Source of the DNA: Kineosporia sp. NBRC 101731
GTDB taxonomy: Bacteria; Actinomycetota; Actinomycetes; Actinomycetales; Kineosporiaceae
NCBI RefSeq assembly: GCF_030269305.1
Contig: NZ_BSTC01000004.1
Coordinates: 313,963 to 377,962, forward strand
Reading direction: 5' to 3'
Length of the DNA stretch: 64,000 bases
The notes under the pieces were generated by a model. It was not told where the DNA came from and made no database searches. It saw nothing but the letters and a program-made list of their open reading frames with translations. Made by a program: the position numbers and the translations under genes. This document shows positions 51,885 through 64,000 of the stretch, piece after piece (the stretch's first letter is position 1; each line of letters begins with the position of its first letter).

Positions 51885-52439
51885 ATGACCGTCACCGCCA
51901 TCCGCGAGCACGCCGCCCTGATCGTCGTGGACCTGCAGCAGGGCACCCTGGCGCAGAACCTCACCACGCCCGCCGAGCAGATCCTCACCCACGCCGCCAC
52001 GCTCGTCGACGCCTTCCGTGCCGGGGGCCGGCCCGTCGTCCTGGTGACCGCGCACTCGATGCCCGCAGGCCTCAACGAGTACGGCGGAGGCCCGCGCCAG
52101 ATGCCCGAGGGCTGGGACACCCCGGCTCCGCAGATCGCGCAGCAGCCGGGCGACATCGTCATCAGCAAGAGCGCGTGGAGCGCCTTCACCGGCACCGATC
52201 TACACCGCCGGCTGACCGATCTCGGCGTCACCCAGACCGTGATCATCGGCCTGGCCACCAGTTTCGGCGTCGAGTCGACGGCCCGCACGGCCTACGACCT
52301 GGGCTACGACGTGGTCATCGCATCCGACGCGGTAGCCGACCTCTCCCAGGAGGCACACCACTCCAGCCTCACCCGCGTCTTCCCCGTCCTGGCCCAGATC
52401 GGCACCACCCGTGAGATCACCGGCCTGATCCAGGCCTGA
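51885..52439 (+). CDS. Isochorismatase-like hydrolase lacking the catalytic cysteine
   Basis: A 184-aa isochorismatase-fold protein. Asp16 (LIVVDLQQG) and Lys95 (VISKSAWSAF) of the triad are present, but the usual Cys in the ATSxCVESTARxA motif is Gly128 (ATSFGVESTARTA). Nicotinamidase-type members need that Cys. True isochorismatases such as PhzD work with Asp and Lys and carry Gly there, so vinyl-ether hydrolysis is possible; no siderophore or phenazine genes lie near. The stop is within an 11-bp tandem repeat. Confidence 0.85.
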   Translation: MTVTAIREHAALIVVDLQQGTLAQNLTTPAEQILTHAATLVDAFRAGGRPVVLVTAHSMPAGLNEYGGGPRQMPEGWDTPAPQIAQQPGDIVISKSAWSAFTGTDLHRRLTDLGVTQTVIIGLATSFGVESTARTAYDLGYDVVIASDAVADLSQEAHHSSLTRVFPVLAQIGTTREITGLIQA

Positions 52440-52458
52440 ATCAGGCCTGCATCAGGCC
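52431..52458. repeat. 11-bp tandem repeat containing a stop codon
   Basis: CAGGCCTGAAT (52431-52441), CAGGCCTGCAT (52442-52452) and partial CAGGCC (52453-52458). The TGA of the isochorismatase-like gene is in unit 1. Confidence 0.8.
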
Positions 52459-52489
52459 GATCCGACCCTCGACCCGTGGGTAGGCGCCG

Positions 52490-53101
52490 TCAGTTCTGAC
52501 TCGAGCGCCTCGGCACGACGAAGACCACGTACACCGCAGCACCGACCGCCAGCACACCCAGCACCACCAGCAGGATCACCAGCGGAGCGGACGAGCCACC
52601 GGAGTCCTCGGCGGTCGCGGCACCGGCCTGGGTGACAGCGGTGGCGGAGGCCGTGGGAGACGGCGCAGCAGCCGAGGACGTCACCGGCGCCGTCGTCGTC
52701 TCCACCGCCGCAGGCTCATTGCCCTGCTGGGCGGTGAAGGCGAACTTCCCCGAGATCGGATGCCCGTCGGACGACGTCACCCGCCAGGTCACCGTGTAGT
52801 CACCCGCCGGCGAGCCGGGTGCGACAGCCTGGGACAGCGTGTTGCCCTTCAACGTGGCCTTGCCCTCGGTGACATCACCCTCCGGGCTGTCCACCCGCAC
52901 CCGCGCACCCAGTTCCAGGATGTCGGCCGAGAACTCGAGCTTCACGACGTCGGGCAGCGTCTTCACGCTCGACCCGTCGGCCGGATTGCTGCTGCCCAGT
53001 TCGTCATGCGCCAGGGCGGGACCGGCCCCCAGAACCACAACGGCGCCGGCCAGCGCCAGAACAGCCCCGAGTCGGCGAGACAGCCGGTACGACAACGACA
53101 T
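52490..53101 (-). CDS. CopC-domain copper-binding protein, membrane-anchored
   Basis: Exported 203-aa protein. Signal residues 1-31 end GPALA, so the mature protein begins with His (HDELGSSNPADG), the amino-terminal Cu(II) ligand typical of CopC. A second His lies in SSDGHPISGKF. The beta-sandwich ends near 125; a Thr/Ala/Ser-rich linker and one C-terminal helix (LVILLVVLGVLAVG) anchor it. The CopD partner is absent locally. Together with the adjacent metal sensor and ATPase it makes a small metal-handling region. Confidence 0.9.
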   Translation of the reverse strand: MSLSYRLSRRLGAVLALAGAVVVLGAGPALAHDELGSSNPADGSSVKTLPDVVKLEFSADILELGARVRVDSPEGDVTEGKATLKGNTLSQAVAPGSPAGDYTVTWRVTSSDGHPISGKFAFTAQQGNEPAAVETTTAPVTSSAAAPSPTASATAVTQAGAATAEDSGGSSAPLVILLVVLGVLAVGAAVYVVFVVPRRSSQN

Positions 53102-53230
53102 GATGTGCTCTCGTCTTTCAGTTCAGATGACGGACGAAGGGGTGGCCCGCCCGGCGGGCGGCGCCTCCGGAGCGTGCACCACCACCGCGACGACCCCGTG
53201 GGCCGGTTTCACGTCGGCAACCCTAGCGGC

Positions 53231-53263
53231 ATTCCAATATTCCAATGAGTGTTAGTTTATTGA
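53231..53263. promoter_or_regulatory. Putative metal-sensor operator/promoter
   Basis: An AT-rich island in very GC-rich DNA: ATTCCAAT is repeated back to back (53231-53246) and is followed by GAGTGTTAGTTTATTGAG up to the GTG of the ArsR-family gene. The position fits an ArsR/SmtB-type autoregulatory operator; the GTG start may be nearly leaderless. Confidence 0.55.
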
Positions 53264-53264
53264 G

Positions 53265-53651
53265 GTGAGCCACGACGCCTGCGATCTTCTCTGTCTCGAC
53301 CTCCCCCACGCCGAGACCGTGCGCAGGTCCCTGCCTCCCCTGGACGCCGCCCAGCTCGCCGCCGACCGGGCCAAGGCCCTGGCCGACCCCAACCGGCTGC
53401 GTGTCGCGGCGGCCCTGGCCACCGGCGACGAACTCTGTGTCTGTGACCTGGCCTGGGTCTGCGGGCTGGCCCAGAACCTCGTCTCCCACCACGTCCGCAA
53501 CCTGCGTCAGGCCGGCGTCGCCGCCTCCCGGCGCGACGGGCGCATGGTGATGTACCGCCTCACCCCGGCCGGCCGCTCACTGCTGGAGGCCCTCCTGCCC
53601 GGCACGCCGCTCGCTGTCATCCCCGCTGCCACGGGCAACAGCGCTTCCTGA
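53265..53651 (+). CDS. ArsR/SmtB-family metal sensor, CadC/CmtR-type
   Basis: A 128-aa winged-helix repressor. Cys6 and Cys10 in the N-terminal arm and Cys58 and Cys60 in ELCVCDLAW match the four-thiolate cadmium/lead site (alpha-3N) of staphylococcal CadC almost by number. The recognition helix is QNLVSHHVRNLRQAG. The gene pair with the P-type ATPase resembles cmtR-ctpG of M. tuberculosis. It should derepress the ATPase when soft metals bind. It starts at GTG 53265, 18 bp before which an AT-rich operator lies. Confidence 0.92.
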   Translation: MSHDACDLLCLDLPHAETVRRSLPPLDAAQLAADRAKALADPNRLRVAAALATGDELCVCDLAWVCGLAQNLVSHHVRNLRQAGVAASRRDGRMVMYRLTPAGRSLLEALLPGTPLAVIPAATGNSAS

Positions 53652-53669
53652 CCGAGAAGGAACACGATC

Positions 53670-55964
53670 ATGGACGCATGCTGCGGTCCGGCCGCGCCGA
53701 AACCGTCCGGGCGCCGGCGTGCCGTCGCGCCGGTGCCCGCGCCGGGTCGTTCGTGCGGTGACGCCGGCGACGGCTGTGCCCCCTCCGAGCGCCCCACCGC
53801 TACCGACACCACCGGCCCCGGTGCGGCTGCCGCCCACCGGGCCGCCTCGTCCATCATCGGTCGTGGGCCCCTGACCCTCACCTCGCGCCCACCCGGCGCC
53901 CAGCTCCTGATCACCCCCACCCAGACCGGGCCAACCGGGCCAACCGGGCAGTCCAGGCAGTGCGGTTGTGGTGGGGCCGCTGGCTGCACCTGCCCGCCCG
54001 GGCCCGGCGACCTCGCCGCGCACCCGATCGGCCGTTCGGGGAAAGTGCCGCAGCCGGCACTGGACGACTGCTGCAGCTTCGACGGCGAGTTCGACACCGA
54101 TGCCGAACCCGAACGCCTGCGCGACATCCCGGCCGTCCGGTTCGCCCTGGCATCGGGTCTGCTGCTGGCCTGCGGGCTGGTCGTGAGCCGCTGGGTGCAC
54201 GGGCCCACGGGTACCGCTCTGGAGGTCGGTGCGCTGCTGGCCGGTGGCTGGACGTTCGTCCCCGACACCCTGCACGGCCTGATCCGCAAGCGCCTGGGGG
54301 TCGGCACCCTCATGACCATCGCCGCGGTCGGGGCGGTGGCCCTGGGCGAGATCGGCGAGGCCGCGGCCCTGGCGTTCCTGTTCTCGATCGCCGAGGGTCT
54401 CGAGGGCTACGCGATCACCCGAACCCGCCGCGGCCTGCGGGCGCTGCTCGACCTGGTACCCGAGGAGGCCCTGGTGCTGCGGGGCGGGGAAACCGTTTCC
54501 GTCGCACCCGAGACCCTGCGCACCGGAGACCGCCTGGTGGTCCGCCCCGGCGCCCGCATCGCCACGGACGGTGTGGTGAGCTCGGGCCGGTCGGCCGTCG
54601 ACACCTCGGCCGTCACCGGCGAGTCGATCCCGGTGGAGACCGGGCCCGGCGACGACGTCTTCGCCGGCACCATCAACGGCACCGGGGTCCTCGAGGTGCA
54701 GGTCACGGCCACCACGGCCGACAACTCCCTGGCCCGGGTCGTGCACATCGTCGAACAGGCCCAGGAACGCAAGGGCACCGCCCAGCGTCTGGCCGACCGC
54801 ACGGCCCGGCCGCTGGTACCCGGAGTGATTGTCCTGGCCACCGGCATTGCCTTTCTGGGAAGTCTTTTCGGGGATCCATCGACCTGGCTGGAACGCGCAC
54901 TGGTGGTGCTGGTCGCGGCCGCTCCGTGCGCCCTGGCCATCTCCGTGCCGGTGGCCGTCGTCACCGCGATCGGCTCGGCCGCCCGCTTCGGGGTGCTGAT
55001 CAAGGGCGGCGCCGCACTCGAGGCCATGGGCCGCGTCCGCGTCGTCGCCCTGGACAAGACCGGCACCCTCACCCGGGGCCGGCCGGTCGTGATCGACGTC
55101 GTCACGGCCGGCGGCAGCTCCCGCGAGCAGGTGCTCGGGGTAGCCGCCACACTGGAGAAACACAGCGAACACCCTCTGGCCCGAGCCATTCTCGAATCCG
55201 TCGGGCCTGCCGGGCCTGCCGAACAGGCCGTGGACGTCCGGGCGATCGCCGGGTCCGGCCTGGAGGGAACCATCGACGGACGACCCGCGCGCCTCGGGCG
55301 TCCCGGTGACGTCGAGGCCGGCCTCCTGGAGGACGACGTCCGTCGCCTCCAGGAGGCCGGCGCCACGGCGGTGGTGGTGGAGCACGACGAACAGGTCCTG
55401 GGCATCATCGGGGTGCGCGACGAACTGCGCCCCGAGGCCCGCGAGACCGTGTCCGAGCTGCGACGCCTCGGCCTGCGGGTGATCATGCTGACCGGCGACA
55501 ATGAGCGTACGGCCAAAGCGCTCGCGGCCCAGGCCGGTATCGACGAGGTGCACGCCGGCCTCCGTCCGCAGGACAAGGCCCGGATCGTCGCCGAACTGCC
55601 CGGCAGCGTGGCCATGGCCGGCGACGGCATCAACGACGCCCCGGCCCTGGCCACCGCCGACGTCGGTATCGCGATGGGCGCCATGGGTGCCGACGTGGCC
55701 ATCGAGACGGCCGACGTGGCCCTCATGGGCGAAGATCTGCGTCATCTGCCGCAGGCCCTGGCCCACGCCCGCCGGGCCCGGCGGGTCATGCTGCAGAGCC
55801 TCGTGCTGTCCATGCTCATTCTCCTCGTGCTGGTGCCGCTCTCGGCCCTCGGCGTACTCGGGCTCGCGGTCGTGGTGGCCACCCACGAACTGGCCGAGGT
55901 GCTGGTGATCGGCAACGGCGTGCGGGCAGCACGCCGCCGCCCGACCGCAGTGACTCGTCGGTGA
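53670..55964 (+). CDS. P1B-type heavy-metal ATPase (CtpG/CadA-like) with Cys-rich N-terminus
   Basis: Metal-exporting ATPase of 764 aa, 18 bp downstream of its sensor gene. The core is complete: TGES in the actuator domain, APCALAIS as the membrane metal motif (in place of CPC), DKTGTLT phosphorylation site, SEHPLARAI and GDGINDAP. Instead of an HMA domain there is a 150-residue low-complexity N-terminus with cysteine clusters (DACCGP, CGDAGDGC, CGCGGAAGCTC, DDCC). Cadmium, lead or zinc is the likely cargo, from the sensor type. Confidence 0.93.
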   Translation: MDACCGPAAPKPSGRRRAVAPVPAPGRSCGDAGDGCAPSERPTATDTTGPGAAAAHRAASSIIGRGPLTLTSRPPGAQLLITPTQTGPTGPTGQSRQCGCGGAAGCTCPPGPGDLAAHPIGRSGKVPQPALDDCCSFDGEFDTDAEPERLRDIPAVRFALASGLLLACGLVVSRWVHGPTGTALEVGALLAGGWTFVPDTLHGLIRKRLGVGTLMTIAAVGAVALGEIGEAAALAFLFSIAEGLEGYAITRTRRGLRALLDLVPEEALVLRGGETVSVAPETLRTGDRLVVRPGARIATDGVVSSGRSAVDTSAVTGESIPVETGPGDDVFAGTINGTGVLEVQVTATTADNSLARVVHIVEQAQERKGTAQRLADRTARPLVPGVIVLATGIAFLGSLFGDPSTWLERALVVLVAAAPCALAISVPVAVVTAIGSAARFGVLIKGGAALEAMGRVRVVALDKTGTLTRGRPVVIDVVTAGGSSREQVLGVAATLEKHSEHPLARAILESVGPAGPAEQAVDVRAIAGSGLEGTIDGRPARLGRPGDVEAGLLEDDVRRLQEAGATAVVVEHDEQVLGIIGVRDELRPEARETVSELRRLGLRVIMLTGDNERTAKALAAQAGIDEVHAGLRPQDKARIVAELPGSVAMAGDGINDAPALATADVGIAMGAMGADVAIETADVALMGEDLRHLPQALAHARRARRVMLQSLVLSMLILLVLVPLSALGVLGLAVVVATHELAEVLVIGNGVRAARRRPTAVTRR

Positions 55965-56174
55965 GTGTCAGCATCACCGTGGGTCGCTGTGCGGCACCCC
56001 GCCCTCGCCATGGACAAGCCATCTCGCTGATGCCCCCGATCACAGAAGCGGGACACTGGACGGTGAAGTACTGTCGGCTCCCTACAGGTGTCCACGACGC
56101 AGATGCCGATTCCCGGACAGGACGACGTCTCCCGGGAACGAACGGGTGCGGCGCCGGGCGACGAGGCCGGGTTC

Positions 56175-56196
56175 ACCGGGGAGGGGACACCCCGGT
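56175..56196. terminator. Possible terminator hairpin after the metal ATPase
   Basis: ACCGGGG (56175-56181) pairs with CCCCGGT (56190-56196) over an 8-nt loop, between the converging ATPase and metallo-hydrolase genes. The gap 55965-56229 holds nothing else I can support. Confidence 0.5.
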
Positions 56197-56229
56197 CTGA
56201 CCAACTACCGGGACGATCTCACGGACTGA

Positions 56230-57336
56230 CTATTTCTGGAGCCGGATGACGTCAAGGTCGTTCCCGACCACGACCTCTCCGGAAAATCCCTTCTGAGCCT
56301 TGGACTTCCAAGCGCTGTCGGGTAGGGCCTTGCTTCCGGGGGCGAGATGGGACAGCACGAGCGTCTTGACGTTCGCCGGCTGAGCCACCTCACCGCCGAT
56401 ACGGGTCACATCGGAGTGACTGTTCTCGTGGTGCTGGATCTGCTCGGGCGTCAGATTGCCCGCATCCTCGACGGCCTGCATGTCGATGGCCTCGTGCACC
56501 AGGATGTCCGCGTCCTGGGCAATCGTCACGGTGTTATCGGTGATCGTCGTGTCCCCACTGAAGGCGACCGACCCATAAGCGGTGTCGAACCGGAACGCGA
56601 AGGACGGGAAAACCGGCGGATGCTGGACGAGAATCGCGGTCACCGTGACCCGATCGTCCGAGAAGACCGTGAACGGCTTCATGGCCGGCGCCATTTCGCC
56701 GGTGGGACTGGCCCCGACCTCAGGAACGGTGATTTCCTCGACCTGGACCAGGGCGCGCGGATCGGGCCAGCCCTCGTCCCGCATCCGGATGTTGATGTCG
56801 TAGGCCGTGGCGGTGATCGAGGACGTGATGAAGTCGTTCAGCCCCGGAGCCGGGTTCTCGGGTGAGACCGTAGCCACGGCCTCACCCGACGCGGACGCCG
56901 GCAGTGCACCGGCCGGTCCCGGTCCGTGCATGGTCACCTTGTGGGTCAGCGGGTTGATCCCACCGAACCGCAGCCACAGCAGGTTGTAGAGATCGGCCAG
57001 GTGGTCGGAGTGCAGGTGGGTGACGAAGACGTGGTCGAGATCGGCGATGTCGAGACCGGACAGCTCGAACTGGTCGAAGGTGCCGTGCCCCATGTCGATC
57101 AGGTAGATCCGCCCGTCCACCACGAGGGCGCTGGAGATTCCCTTCCGTCCTCGCATCGGGACGGGTCCGGCGGCGGTACCCAGGAGCACGACCGCAGCGC
57201 CCTTGGTGGGAATGGCTGTGGTGGTGGTCGGGGTCGGGGTCGGTGATGCGAACGCTGACTTGGCCCCCAGGGTTCCGGCGGCGGCGACCGCGGTCGCCGT
57301 GGCCGCCTTGATGACCTGTCGTCGGTTGGTGTTCAT
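56230..57336 (-). CDS. Tat-exported metallo-beta-lactamase-fold hydrolase
   Basis: A 368-aa secreted MBL-fold enzyme. NRRQVIK at 4-10 plus an Ala-rich core is a Tat signal, followed by a Pro/Thr linker. The dinuclear site has His107, His109, Asp111 and His112 (THLHSDH), later Asp in SGDTTITDN and a C-terminal His (LSHLAPG). It resembles RNase Z/arylsulfatase- and lactonase-like members; the substrate is unknown. It is the last gene of an operon with an alpha/beta hydrolase and an MMPL exporter. Confidence 0.87.
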   Translation of the reverse strand: MNTNRRQVIKAATATAVAAAGTLGAKSAFASPTPTPTTTTAIPTKGAAVVLLGTAAGPVPMRGRKGISSALVVDGRIYLIDMGHGTFDQFELSGLDIADLDHVFVTHLHSDHLADLYNLLWLRFGGINPLTHKVTMHGPGPAGALPASASGEAVATVSPENPAPGLNDFITSSITATAYDINIRMRDEGWPDPRALVQVEEITVPEVGASPTGEMAPAMKPFTVFSDDRVTVTAILVQHPPVFPSFAFRFDTAYGSVAFSGDTTITDNTVTIAQDADILVHEAIDMQAVEDAGNLTPEQIQHHENSHSDVTRIGGEVAQPANVKTLVLSHLAPGSKALPDSAWKSKAQKGFSGEVVVGNDLDVIRLQK

Positions 57337-57369
57337 ACCGTGTACCTACTTTTCGGATCAGATGAGCGG

Positions 57370-58248
57370 TCAGGAATTTTCCGTGACGGCGACCAGGAGG
57401 TCACCGACGATGTCGCCGAACCGGGACCACAGCGACAGATGCCCGTCCTGCGATTCGACGTGCAGCGCGGCGCCCGGGACGTTGTCCGCGAGCCAAAGAG
57501 CGTGTGCGAGGGGAACCATCCGGTCCTGGACTCCCTGCCACACACTCACCGGCACGCGGATGTCCTCCAGCGCGAATCCCCAGTCGTTGGCGAAGGCCAG
57601 ATCGTCTTCCCGCCAGCCGGCGATCCCGGAGGAGACGGCGTAGTGCATCGTCTCGACCATGTGCTCAAGGGCGTCACCGGTCAGGGCGGCCTGGTCGGCC
57701 GGCCCCACCAGGCCGCCGAGCGCCGCGACGACGTCCTCGGGCCGGACGGTAGCCAGGCCCTGCGCCTCGGCCGACAGGTAGGCGTCCAGTTCGCTGGTTC
57801 CCTTGACAGCAGCGCCGAACTCAGCCAGATTCTCCGGAGCCATGCCCTCGAGGAAGTCCAGGCCCGGCGCGGCGAAGGGCCCGACTCCGGCGACGATCGC
57901 AGCGCCGAGACACCGCTGCGGCAGGAGCGCGGCGCAGGCCAGCGCGTGCGGGCCGCCGCCCGAATGACCCATGGTGAGGAACTTTTCCGTGCCGAGGGCA
58001 TCCAACAGCTCGGTCACATCCGCGGCTACGTCGGCGATGCTACGACCAGGGTGAGGAGTGGAGGTGCCGTAACCGGGGCGGCTGAAAGTGATCAGTCGGA
58101 GCCCGTGCTTGTAGGCGGCTTCGGTCAGGGGTCTGAGCCGGACCGCGCCGCCGGGTGATCCGTGATGGAACACCAGGGGCAGCGCGTCGGAGGATCCGAT
58201 GCTGTCGTAGGCAAGACTGCGTCCGTCGGGAAGATTCACGTGTTGCAC
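57370..58248 (-). CDS. Alpha/beta-fold hydrolase
   Basis: A 292-aa cytoplasmic hydrolase. HHGSPGG near 28-34 is the oxyanion loop, the nucleophile Ser lies in MGHSGGGPHAL near 94-104, the acid in VWQGVQDRMVP and the His in SQDGHLSL. It belongs to the epoxide-hydrolase/esterase-like group. It lies 24 bp from the MMPL gene and 33 bp from the MBL gene, so it is probably cotranscribed. Confidence 0.9.
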   Translation of the reverse strand: MQHVNLPDGRSLAYDSIGSSDALPLVFHHGSPGGAVRLRPLTEAAYKHGLRLITFSRPGYGTSTPHPGRSIADVAADVTELLDALGTEKFLTMGHSGGGPHALACAALLPQRCLGAAIVAGVGPFAAPGLDFLEGMAPENLAEFGAAVKGTSELDAYLSAEAQGLATVRPEDVVAALGGLVGPADQAALTGDALEHMVETMHYAVSSGIAGWREDDLAFANDWGFALEDIRVPVSVWQGVQDRMVPLAHALWLADNVPGAALHVESQDGHLSLWSRFGDIVGDLLVAVTENS

Positions 58249-58272
58249 GGCAGGAGGCCTTTCCCTGATGGA

Positions 58273-60420
58273 TCAAGGAGCTGGTGTGGTGTGAGCTTCG
58301 AGGTGCGGCAGGATCCGGTCGACCCAGCGGGGGATCCACCAGTTGCCGCCGCCCAGAAGGAACATGGTGGCCGGGACGACGATCAAGCGGATGATCGTGG
58401 CGTCGATCAGCACGCTGGCCGCCAGTCCGAGGGCGAGCATCTTGACCACGATCACGTCGGACAGCACGAATGCTGCGAAGACGCTGGTCATGATCAGCGC
58501 CGCGCAGCTGATCACCCGCGCCGTCACCGACAGCCCTTCGCCCACGCTCAACCGGTTGTCGTGCGTGCGCAGCCAGGCGTCGCGGACCCGCGAGAGCAGG
58601 AACACCTCGTAGTCCATGGACAGCCCGAACACGATCGCGAACATCATCATGGGTACGTAGGACTCGATGGGCACGGTCTCCCTGACCCCGAAGAGTGATG
58701 CGCCCCAGCCCCATTGGAACACCGCCACCACCACGCCGTAGGCCGCGGCGATGGACAGCAGGTTCAGCACCGCCGCCTTGATGGCCACCAGCACGCTGCG
58801 GAAGGTGATCAGGAGCAACAGCATCGCCGCCGCAAGCACCACAGCGATGATCACCGGCAGCCGGGAGACGATCTTGTCGCGGAAGTCGAGCTGGAAGGCG
58901 GTCGCCCCGGTCACGTATCCGTGGGCGTCATGGGCCTCCACTATCTTGGGCAGGGTGTCGTCGCGCAAGGTGCGCAGCACCTCCTCGGTCGAGGAGTCCT
59001 GCGGTCCGGTCGTCGGGATCACCGTGGCCACGAGCACGTCCCCGTCCTTGGTGGCCTGCACCTTCGAGACCGAGGCCACGCCTCGGACGCCCTGCAGAGC
59101 CTTCTGCAGATCGGCTGACACGTCCGTGTCGGCGTGCGAGACGTCCACCACGATGGTCAGCGGTCCGTTGGCACCGGGGCCGAACGCGTCGGAGATCGCG
59201 TCGTAGGCCTGCCGACTGGTGAAGTCGGCCGGATCGGAACCGGCGTCCACGTGTCCCAGCTGCATCGACAACGTCGGCAGGGCGATCACGGCCAGCAGCG
59301 CCACCCCGCCGGCCAGATACAGCCAGGGACGGCGTCCGATCCGGGCCGCGTGCCGGTGCCACACGTCGCTCTCGCCGCTACCGGCCTCGGCGACGGCCGA
59401 GCGGACGCGCAGCCGGTCGATCCGCTTGCCGGCCAGGCCGAGCAGCGACGGCACCAGCGTGACGGCGGCCGCCGCGGCGACCGCGACGGTCAGCGCCGCC
59501 GCCAGACCGAGCTTGCCGATGAAGGAGACCCCGGACGCATAGAGCCCCAGCATCGCGATGACCACGGTCATTGCGGCGATCAGGACCGATCGCCCGCTGC
59601 CTTCCACGGTCCGCCCGGCCGCCTCGGCCGGTTCGCCGCCCTCCATCAGGTCTTGGCGGAAGCGGGTGGCCAGGAAGAGCGCGTAGTCGATACCGACGCC
59701 GAGTCCCATCATGATCGCCAGCGTGGGCGAGACCGTGGCGAACGTGGTGGCGGCGGCCAGCATGCCGAGCAGCCCCATCCCGGCCAGCACCCCGATCGCT
59801 GCGGAGAGGATCGGTAGGCCGGCCGCGGCGACGCTGCCGAAACCCAGGAGCAGCACTACGACCGCGGTGCCGATGCCGATCAGTTCCGAGACCGCGTCGC
59901 CGGTCTTCGGCCGGGCAGCCTGACCGAGCTCACCGCCGTACTCCACGTTGACGCCCGCCCGACGGGCCGACTCGGTGGCATCGTCGATCTGGGTGACGAA
60001 GGCGTCACCCAGCGCGCTCGGATTCTTGTCGAAACCGGCAGTGACGTAGGCGGTCCGGCCGTCCTGAGAGTCTATGGGGTCGGTTACGGACTGCACATGG
60101 CCAAGACGGCGGATGGCGTCGACCGAACTGTCGATCGCCGCCTTCTGTTGAGCCAGCGTTCCCTCGCGCACGGTGAAGACGACCTGACCGCTCTGCGCAC
60201 CGCTACTGGACTGATGCATCTGCAGGAGATCAGCACCCCGCTGAGCAGGGGCATTGGGCAGCTCAAAGTCGTCGGAGTACTGCCCGCCCAGGGCTTGGTG
60301 GCCGAGCGTGACGCCGACGAGCAGGACCAGCCAGAGCAGGACGACCGGCCCGGGGTGGCGGGCGCAGAAACGTCCCAGCCGGTAGAGGCCACCGGGCCGC
60401 GCACTCAAAAAATCTGTCAC
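58273..60420 (-). CDS. MMPL-family RND transporter
   Basis: A 715-aa membrane exporter with two MMPL repeats. It has one helix then a large external loop, a five-helix bundle with LGVGIDYALFLATRFRQDL, a second external loop from about 360 and a second bundle with FGLSMDYEVFLLSRVRDAW. The paired GxxxDY motifs are the proton-relay signature. GTG 60420 opens the gene within the operator region. It is the first gene of the operon; in actinobacteria such pumps export lipids or toxic hydrophobics. Confidence 0.93.
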   Translation of the reverse strand: MTDFLSARPGGLYRLGRFCARHPGPVVLLWLVLLVGVTLGHQALGGQYSDDFELPNAPAQRGADLLQMHQSSSGAQSGQVVFTVREGTLAQQKAAIDSSVDAIRRLGHVQSVTDPIDSQDGRTAYVTAGFDKNPSALGDAFVTQIDDATESARRAGVNVEYGGELGQAARPKTGDAVSELIGIGTAVVVLLLGFGSVAAAGLPILSAAIGVLAGMGLLGMLAAATTFATVSPTLAIMMGLGVGIDYALFLATRFRQDLMEGGEPAEAAGRTVEGSGRSVLIAAMTVVIAMLGLYASGVSFIGKLGLAAALTVAVAAAAAVTLVPSLLGLAGKRIDRLRVRSAVAEAGSGESDVWHRHAARIGRRPWLYLAGGVALLAVIALPTLSMQLGHVDAGSDPADFTSRQAYDAISDAFGPGANGPLTIVVDVSHADTDVSADLQKALQGVRGVASVSKVQATKDGDVLVATVIPTTGPQDSSTEEVLRTLRDDTLPKIVEAHDAHGYVTGATAFQLDFRDKIVSRLPVIIAVVLAAAMLLLLITFRSVLVAIKAAVLNLLSIAAAYGVVVAVFQWGWGASLFGVRETVPIESYVPMMMFAIVFGLSMDYEVFLLSRVRDAWLRTHDNRLSVGEGLSVTARVISCAALIMTSVFAAFVLSDVIVVKMLALGLAASVLIDATIIRLIVVPATMFLLGGGNWWIPRWVDRILPHLEAHTTPAP

Positions 60421-60456
60421 GACTGACAGTTTTAGGCAAAAGTGTCAGGGCTGACA
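60414..60456. promoter_or_regulatory. Two operator-like repeats between MMPL and TetR genes
   Basis: CTGTCACGACTGACAG (60414-60429, 6-bp arms) and TGTCAGGGCTGACA (60443-60456, 6-bp arms) share the TGTCAG/CTGACA half-site. The first overlaps the MMPL start codon. Spacing of about 28 bp suits two TetR dimers. Confidence 0.68.
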
Positions 60457-60522
60457 AGTTTGCCCAGACAATGCGACGAGTGACTTTAGGTAGTCGGGGG
60501 CTGATCGTGAAATGCTTTGCCT

Positions 60523-61155
60523 GTGACGTCTACCGGTGGAAAGCGCGAGGCCAACAAACTGGCCACCCGCACGGCCTTGCAGGCCGCCGCCGACCGGCTG
60601 TTCGAGCAGCAGGGCTTTGAGAACACCACCGTCCGGGACATCGCCGATGCCGCTGGCGTCACCGAACGCACCTTCTTCCGGTACTTCGCCGCGAAGGAGG
60701 AACTGATCCTGGACGACGCCCTGTCCTGGCTTCCGGACCTGACCGAGGCCATCCGGACCCGGCCGGCCGCGGAGGGACCGCTGACAGCCGTCCAGATGGG
60801 CCTGGCCACCGTGGCGTGGAAGATCGCCCAGGGAAACCGGCCCTCACCCCTGTGGATGTTCCACGAGGGCCCGCCCGGCCCGAAGCTCCGCCGCGCCCCG
60901 AACGCGGTCGGTTTCCGGGTGGAGGAGGCGATAGCGATCCCCCTGCGCGCGCGCCTGATCGCGGCCTCAACCCCCAATTCCGATGATCCGGAGCCGCAAT
61001 TCGTGGCCGATATCCTCGCCCGGGCCTCGCTCGCCGCCCTGCGCAGCGGCCTGATCCGGGACTGGGAGTTGCGCGACCGCGACGCCGAAAACCGGCCTCC
61101 TCTGTCCCAGCTGATCCAGCAGGCCTTCGCCACGATCATCGCCGTGCACGACTGA
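60523..61155 (+). CDS. TetR-family regulator of the MMPL operon
   Basis: A 210-aa TetR protein; helix-turn-helix near 31-58 (ENTTVRDIADAAGVTERTFFRYF), MftR-like C-terminal domain. GTG 60523 is chosen; an in-frame TTG six bases earlier is less likely. It is divergent from the MMPL exporter with two repeated sites between, so it is the probable repressor of the three-gene export/hydrolase operon. Confidence 0.88.
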   Translation: MTSTGGKREANKLATRTALQAAADRLFEQQGFENTTVRDIADAAGVTERTFFRYFAAKEELILDDALSWLPDLTEAIRTRPAAEGPLTAVQMGLATVAWKIAQGNRPSPLWMFHEGPPGPKLRRAPNAVGFRVEEAIAIPLRARLIAASTPNSDDPEPQFVADILARASLAALRSGLIRDWELRDRDAENRPPLSQLIQQAFATIIAVHD

Positions 61156-61317
61156 TCGCACCGCACATGCGAAACAACTTGCTCTTGAATTATTTCCGGA
61201 AGAAGCGACTCACCGTCACCGGTCGCTGCCTGGAGCGGACATTCCGCGACTGCTTGCCGAACTGGCGATGACCGGTCGCCGAACACCGCCCTTTCCCGGG
61301 ATGATCACGGTCGATAG

Positions 61318-61645
61318 TCACGAGGTGTTCGCCGACCAACGACGCCCAAGAATTCTCGATCCGTTCCGGCCCAGGTGCAGGACGTCGGTGCGGGCGATCG
61401 AGGCGATGTCGTTCCGGTCGCCAGCCGCGGGTAACCGGCCGTGCCGCTGCACCGCAGCGCCGAACACCTCCAGCAGCTCCAGCTCGCGCGCGGCTTGCCA
61501 GAACCTTCTCCCACAACTGGATGACGTCCACCCTAGCCGCCAGCACGACGTCCGAAGAGTCGGTGAGATTGCCCTGACGGGAACGGGAATCGCAGCAGAG
61601 ATACAGGCGGGCCCGGATCAGGGCCGGGTGCGGGGATCGGGGCAT
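61318..61645 (-). pseudogene. thiE: Frameshifted and truncated thiE (thiamine-phosphate synthase)
   Basis: From ATG 61645 the minus strand reads ARLYLCCDSRSRQGNL and VDVIQLWEKVL, the N-terminus of ThiE. Near 61500 the similarity moves to the next frame: ARELELLEVFGAAVQRHGRL, then DIASIARTDVLHLGRNGS and ILGRRWS, ending at TGA 61318. The C-terminal half (the diphosphate-binding PTxTK region) is not found. It sits divergent from thiOSG, where a working thiE is usual in actinobacteria. Thiamine phosphate synthase must be supplied elsewhere, or thiamine is salvaged. The rest of 61156-61684 shows no other gene. Confidence 0.85.
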
Positions 61646-61683
61646 GCGCCGAAGTGTCGCATTGGGCGGGGTATGGTGATGCC

Positions 61684-61768
61684 AGCACGGGAGCCCACCG
61701 AGGGCTGAGAGGGCGAACATCTCGCCGACCGTTGAACCTGCTCCGGGTCATGCCGGCGAAGGGAGCTC
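61684..61768 (+). ncRNA. TPP riboswitch (THI element)
   Basis: Conserved aptamer parts are in order: GGGAGCCC, then GGGCTGAGAGGG (61703-61713), CCGACCGTTGAACCTG (61725-61740) and CCGGGTCATGCCGGCGAAGGGA (61743-61764). The final GAAGGGAG is both the closing strand and the Shine-Dalgarno sequence of thiO (ATG 61773), so thiamine pyrophosphate should block translation start directly. Confidence 0.93.
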
Positions 61769-61772
61769 GAAC

Positions 61773-62957
61773 ATGGTAATTGGCACGCCTGTTCCGGCCA
61801 CCGATGTGGTCGTCCTGGGCGGCGGTGTCGTCGGCACGGCCTGTGCCTGGCGGCTGGCCCAGCGCGGGCTGCAGGTGATCCTCGTCGACCCTGCGCCCGG
61901 ATCGGGGGCCTCCGGCGTGGCGGCCGGGATGCTCGCCCCCGTCAGCGAGGTGCAGCCCGGCGAAGAACCGTTGCTGCGTCTGGGGTGTCACGCGGCGCAG
62001 GGATACCCGGACTTCGTCCGCGAACTCGAGCTGGTCAGCGGCCTGGTCACCGGGTACCGCCGGTGCGGCACCCTGGCCGTGGCCCTGACCGCCGACGACC
62101 GAGCCCGCCTGGCCGAGACCCGGCGCCTGCAGGCCGGTCTCGGGTTGACGGTCGAGGCCCTCACCGGTCGGCGCTGCCGCGCACTGGAACCGACGCTGGA
62201 TCCGGGGGTCAGCGCGGGCACACTGATCCCCGACGACCACCAGATCGACCCGCGCCGGCTGCTGGAGGCTCTGCGGATCGCGGCCACGACCGCCGGGGTG
62301 GTCACCGTTCAGGATTCAGGCACCCCCGAACGGGTGGACGAGGTGCTCGCCGGCGTCCGTCTGGCCTCCGGGGCACTGGTGCGGGCCCTCCGGGTGGTGC
62401 TGGCCACCGGCGCGTGGGCCCGGTCGGTCGTGCCGTCGGTACGGCCGGTCAAGGGGCAGATCCTGCGGCTGCGGATGCCCGCGGGTGATCACATCCTGCG
62501 GCGCACCGTCCGCGCGGTGGTGCACGGCCGGGACGTGTACCTGGTGCCGCGCGAGAACGGTGAACTGGTGGTCGGGGCGACCAGCGAGGACGTCGGCCTG
62601 GACCAGCGGGTCACCGCCGGCGCCGTGCACGATCTCCTGCAGGACGCCCGGGCCCTGGTGCCCGGGGTATCGGAACTGGAGTTCACCGAAACCGCGGCGC
62701 GATGCCGTCCGGGCACTCCCGACAACCTGCCCCTGATCGGGCCTTCCGCGGTCCCGGGCCTGATCCTGGCGACCGGCCACCACCGCAACGGTGTGCTGCT
62801 GTGCGGGGTCACTGCCGACGCTGTGACTGCTGCCCTGGCCGACGGGGACGTGCCCGCCGGCCCGGTGCGGGTGTGCGATCCCCGGCGGCTCGAACAGCCC
62901 GGTACATCGACGACAGGCCGTGACACCACCACGGTGGCCACGGCCGGACGGAGGTAG
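61773..62957 (+). CDS. thiO: Glycine oxidase ThiO
   Basis: FAD enzyme of 394 aa that oxidises glycine to dehydroglycine for the thiazole ring of thiamine. The FAD site is VVVLGGGVVGTACAWRL at 12-28, with GASGVAAGMLAP near 45-56 and GLILATGHHRNGVLL near the C-terminus. It is directly behind the TPP riboswitch and 6 bp before thiS, first gene of the thiO-thiS-thiG operon. Confidence 0.94.
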   Translation: MVIGTPVPATDVVVLGGGVVGTACAWRLAQRGLQVILVDPAPGSGASGVAAGMLAPVSEVQPGEEPLLRLGCHAAQGYPDFVRELELVSGLVTGYRRCGTLAVALTADDRARLAETRRLQAGLGLTVEALTGRRCRALEPTLDPGVSAGTLIPDDHQIDPRRLLEALRIAATTAGVVTVQDSGTPERVDEVLAGVRLASGALVRALRVVLATGAWARSVVPSVRPVKGQILRLRMPAGDHILRRTVRAVVHGRDVYLVPRENGELVVGATSEDVGLDQRVTAGAVHDLLQDARALVPGVSELEFTETAARCRPGTPDNLPLIGPSAVPGLILATGHHRNGVLLCGVTADAVTAALADGDVPAGPVRVCDPRRLEQPGTSTTGRDTTTVATAGRR

Positions 62958-62963
62958 AACACG

Positions 62964-64000
<1,037 letters not shown>

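Follow-up and report, generated by a model that had tools for sequence, protein, structure and literature searches.

The described systems closest to this locus are the HMP-auxotroph variant of thiamine synthesis, the thiM-thiE-thiD salvage operon, and the actinobacterial type of ThiE represented by PDB 3o63. The first is listed as 'Ah' in Table 1 of PMC6593275, where it accounts for 199 of 2,228 genomes, and PMC11452348, in a marine context, describes HMP auxotrophy as the commonest form that B1 auxotrophy takes. We compared these systems with a thiE remnant in the genome of Kineosporia sp. NBRC 101731 (G000), found in a window of 64,000 nucleotides, which is the whole stretch of DNA analysed (Table 1). 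Our reading, to which we give a probability of about 0.93, is that the thiE copy beside thiO (thiE1) was redundant and decayed, and that an intact second copy (thiE2) remains elsewhere in the genome. The genus comparison used six genomes, G000 and its congeners G001, G002, G003, G004, and G005. G002 is taken as the closest congener because its ThiD-TenA shared 93% identity with the G000 protein, against 74–76% for the remaining four congeners.

Table 1. Features of the window and the evidence for each.
Feature	Position	Strand	Evidence or remark
Window, Kineosporia sp. NBRC 101731 genome (G000)	G000:C4:313963-377962	forward	
Segment of ~8.9 kb: CopC, P-type ATPase, MBL-fold, alpha/beta hydrolase, MMPL, TetR (TetR_N)	52440..61369		domain matches
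Breakpoint, end of homology to G002 thiE and flank; thiE 3' half absent	61360..61369		alignments to G002
thiE1 pseudogene, 5' half (~92 codons), divergent from thiO	61369..61645	-	ATG start 61645; two-frame homology to G002 ThiE
Net one-base insertion at ~61497, frame-shifting relative to G002	61496..61498	-	alignments to G002
TPP riboswitch aptamer (RF00059) of the thiOSGF operon	61677..61781	+	64.8 bits (gathering score 54.3)
thiO, glycine oxidase	61773..62957	+	PF01266; TIGR02352 349.7 bits (cut-off 250.8)
thiS, sulfur carrier	62964..63194	+	PF02597, 3.5e-13
thiG, thiazole synthase	63191..64000	+	PF05690, 1.6e-100; intact, completed in L085

At the same place as the remnant, G002 carried an intact thiE of 244 amino acids, counted from the first ATG (PF02581, 1.3e-45). 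In a tblastn comparison this protein (L032) matched the window at 61747-61499 (83 amino acids, 87% identity) and, in a different frame, at 61497-61366 (44 amino acids, 82%; E 7e-54). The ThiE proteins of G001 and G005 matched about the same two stretches with 39–62% identity. A sequence-only reading of the window had placed the N-terminal half of ThiE on the minus strand with a change of frame near 61500, and the two-frame match with its gap at about 61497 agrees with this. The upper limit of that reading, the ATG, was correct, but its lower limit of 61318 lay about 50 bases past the detectable G002 homology; the G005 ThiE alignment reached down to 61321. At the DNA level, window 61370-61900 was 91% identical to G002 with a single gap at about 61497 (blastn). 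Under one gap penalty two close opposite gaps also appeared near 61557-61553. Three substitutions fitted these positions equally well, and we therefore claim a single net frameshift.

Pfam gave no match to either half of the remnant in the correct thiE frames at E values up to 10; an earlier scan had covered the first half in the thiE frame and the second half in a non-thiE frame. As Pfam recognised neither half, the remnant was identified through its congeneric orthologues. Two conserved motifs were altered, QLREK to QLWEK and AANDRAD to AAGDRND. In the B. subtilis enzyme, the arginine and asparagine of the QLREK and ND motifs bind the substrate. The frameshift near 61497 and the absence of the 3' half rule out a full-length product.

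The C-terminal half of ThiE had been described as gone, and the alignments bore this out. Homology stopped at about 61369. When the sequence below this point (61372-61150) was aligned locally to the remainder of G002 thiE plus its 3' flanking sequence, the best score was 21, which is chance level against 300 shuffles (mean 19.4, 95th percentile 24, maximum 31). A search of the whole G000 assembly with PF02581 found no C-terminal thiE fragment elsewhere at E ≤ 0.001. The breakpoint of the ~8.9-kb segment falls inside thiE. The G002 counterpart of this segment is about 3.1 kb long and includes the 3' half of thiE, and on the far side of the segment the match between G002 and the window resumes at 52436. 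Relatives of the segment's CopC and ATPase genes lay together on one G001 contig (C45); G005 had the ATPase relative on C17, and its best match to CopC came from a different contig.

The remnant differed from G002 at 31 of 275 compared bases, with 9, 10, and 12 differences at codon positions 1, 2, and 3 (92, 92, and 91 sites, respectively). Control genes from the same pair of species gave 22/24/72 for thiO, 20/13/60 for thiG, and 9/8/60 for thiM. The share of position-3 differences in the remnant departed from the pooled controls (Fisher p 0.003) and from each control singly (thiO 0.041, thiG 0.020, thiM 0.0002). As the remnant is short, the test leans on only 31 differences, and its outcome is that expected of codon positions under relaxed constraint.

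The thiazole genes and their TPP riboswitch had been read as intact, and the profile matches to thiO, thiS, and thiG and the score of the aptamer support this. The aptamer showed zero differences from G002 over 61670-61775. thiG ends at about 64042, past the end of the window, and is followed by a thiF-rhodanese gene (L085). The thiO riboswitches of G001 (L030 8970-9078) and G005 (L036 8868-8977) scored 52.9 and 52.7 bits, which falls slightly short of the Rfam gathering score of 54.3, and scans at that threshold therefore miss them.

The sequence-only reading had supposed that thiamine-phosphate synthase must come from a second gene, either unlinked or fused as ThiED, and had suggested a genome search for it. 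The search returned one intact gene, G000:C3:504299-504868, which was the sole PF02581 match in G000 at E ≤ 0.001 (E 1.2e-44, full-length TMP-TENI domain, without internal stop) and scored 155.4 bits against the curated TIGR00693 thiE cut-off of 145.1 (NCBIfam). The assembly is a draft of 8.26 Mb in 88 contigs (completeness 99.11, contamination 2.65), so that a missed gene is possible. The unlinked option thus held. ThiE2 is a separate open reading frame of 216 amino acids, so the ThiED fusion was rejected; its neighbours are thiM on one side and a thiD-tenA fusion on the other, with stop and start codons that overlap. This thiM-thiE-thiD/tenA operon is led by a TPP riboswitch scoring 68.7 bits. 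ThiE2 is the predicted thiamine-phosphate synthase of the strain.

Across the genus, thiE1 was divergent from thiO and intact in G001, G002, and G005, and a pseudogene in G000. In G003 it was not found within 17 kb around thiO, where a riboswitch-led thiO-thiG cluster was present with no detectable thiE nearby. thiE2 was present in G000–G004 and absent from the corresponding operon of G005. There, the ThiD-TenA reading frame (L092 6527-8017, G005:C34) follows a TPP riboswitch and its first residues are those of the leader peptide of ThiM in the congeners, which suggests that thiM and thiE2 have been deleted. G004 kept thiE2, and no thiE1 was seen in it; it also lacked a full-length ThiG. Loss of thiE in the genus is reciprocal: G000 and G003 hold only the salvage-operon copy, and G005 only the thiO-linked one. 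Because G002 keeps both copies, thiE1 was lost in G000 after the split from G002. Weak second PF02581 matches were also noted in the congeners, at 27.4 bits on G005:C12, just over the cut-off of 27, and under it in G004 (26.0 bits), G003 (25.8 bits), and G001 (21.8 bits). Those of G005, G004, and G003 lie over reading frames of 330–440 amino acids, presumably nitronate-monooxygenase-type proteins, and were not counted as ThiE.

thiE1 and thiE2 were 35–37% identical and formed two groups in the tree, each with genes from other families and divided by a branch with support 100/97. Low identity and separate grouping indicate old paralogues or xenologues and not a recent duplication. The tree had 37 rows and took in 17 of the named loci, 37 of which had a hit. 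No row was dropped for length, and rows G006a and G006b are one gene picked twice. For the named genomes, five aligned ThiO proteins of the genus served as the query and gave at least 53 loci, many clipped by contig ends and some belonging to distant oxidases. Among the 53 matches listed, the script found no thiE at 16, a same-strand upstream thiE at 13, a divergent thiE within 1.5 kb at 1, and other arrangements at 23. Read by eye, these 23 listed matches comprised an opposite-strand upstream thiE in 18 cases (best hit thiE1 type in 16 and thiE2 type in 2) and a downstream thiE in 5. An opposite-strand upstream thiE with its best hit to the thiE1 type was thus present at 17 of the 53 loci among the matches listed, mostly 1.7–2.8 kb away, and at most of these listed loci a thiE1-type neighbour was not seen.

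None of the six genus genomes matched ThiC (PF01964). The search covered 28 genomes, with G000 among them, and 5 matched; its control matched in 13 of 14 genomes. ThiD and ThiL (225.1 bits, cut-off 184.15) were present in G000. A third TPP riboswitch of G000 preceded a PF09819 domain, two ABC_tran stretches, and CbiQ, which is the YkoE-YkoD-YkoC layout, with PF09819 taken as the YkoE family. The number of TPP riboswitches in G000 is at least three, since the search took only 94 of its 437 initial candidates to scoring. From this gene content G000 is predicted to be an HMP auxotroph that makes thiazole and not a thiamine prototroph; as a ThiC match is absent, growth is expected with HMP or thiamine. 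This corrects the predicted phenotype of the strain. Full-length ThiG was found in five of the six genus genomes (G000, G001, G002, G003, and G005; not G004), and HMP auxotrophy is predicted to be a trait of the genus. Five genomes of the same family (G007, G008, G009, G011, and G012) gave no PF02581 match at E ≤ 0.001, no ThiC match, and only a short and weak match to the ThiG profile, and apparently lack thiamine synthesis of this kind.

The history of the locus would then run as follows. Two ThiE enzymes were probably present in the ancestor of the genus, with thiE1 divergent from a riboswitch-led thiOSGF operon and thiE2 in a riboswitch-led thiM-thiE-thiD/tenA operon. Once the G000 lineage had separated from G002, its thiE1 would have lost the 3' half to a rearrangement whose breakpoint lay inside the gene, and it would also have acquired the frameshift and the motif changes. 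Imported HMP could be phosphorylated by ThiD to HMP-PP, which ThiE2 from C3 would join to the thiazole phosphate that ThiOSGF would supply, and ThiL may then make TPP. We infer these enzyme activities, the order of the lesions, that redundancy permitted the loss, that HMP is the vitamer imported, and, from six genomes, that the direction of change was loss in G000 and not gain in the congeners.

An artefact would produce a similar picture if the real strain had an intact thiE and the window contained a mis-join together with a spurious frameshift. Single-base shifts are common sequencing errors, and the assembly, in 88 contigs with a contamination of 2.65, is a draft. However, the lesions are several and independent, namely the frameshift, the motif substitutions, and the even spread over codon positions, and the missing C-terminal fragment did not turn up elsewhere in the assembly at E ≤ 0.001. 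The sequence-only reading had itself raised a sequencing error combined with an unrecognised C-terminal part that would restore the frame; no C-terminal half was detectable, and an unrelated segment of about 9 kb flanks the site. We consider an artefact very improbable. Scarcely more probable, in our view, is that the remnant was retained for another job, as promoter sequence of the divergent thiO operon, which would keep it from eroding further, or as the source of a short product such as that of the 49-amino-acid reading frame at 61318-61467. Its place directly upstream of the thiO riboswitch, itself unchanged from G002, would suit such a role, and short reading frames are mechanically present. 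The even codon-position spread and the lack of a Pfam match speak against a retained protein, and the G003 cluster, with its riboswitch and without detectable thiE nearby, argues that thiE sequence is not needed near thiO.

The decay of a redundant thiE1 is thus the preferred reading, and it is an ordinary and unsurprising loss of a spare gene. The thiOSGF operon of the window should not be annotated as a broken pathway, because the missing step is encoded elsewhere behind a riboswitch of the same kind. Beyond the sequence-only reading, the comparison adds that ThiC is missing, that each of the two operons has a riboswitch, and that the pattern across the genus is reciprocal. The genus is a compact case in which redundancy preceded reciprocal loss of genes. 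A wider idea, which we hold only tentatively and think doubtful, is that the thiazole-linked and salvage-linked ThiE types were lost reciprocally with at least one kept per species, and that the surviving ThiE tracks the precursors met. If so, under a shared pyrimidine requirement the ThiE survivor would reflect the thiamine precursors each species meets, and the window would have caught a loss in mid-decay.

Among solved structures, the intact congeneric orthologue matched PDB 3o63 best (E 7.3e-66), which we take to be the M. tuberculosis ThiE; the window copy, in contrast, is truncated and frameshifted and has altered conserved motifs. The only intact ThiE of G000 sits in a TPP-riboswitch-led operon of the thiM-thiE-thiD salvage type, but here thiD is fused to tenA and ThiE is separate. 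Compared with variant Ah of PMC6593275, G000 has the same ThiF, ThiS, ThiO, ThiG, ThiD, ThiE, and ThiL without a ThiC match, and its YkoEDC-like importer fits the transporter assignment made there. It differs from that description in that its ThiE is supplied by the salvage operon, the thiO-linked copy having decayed.
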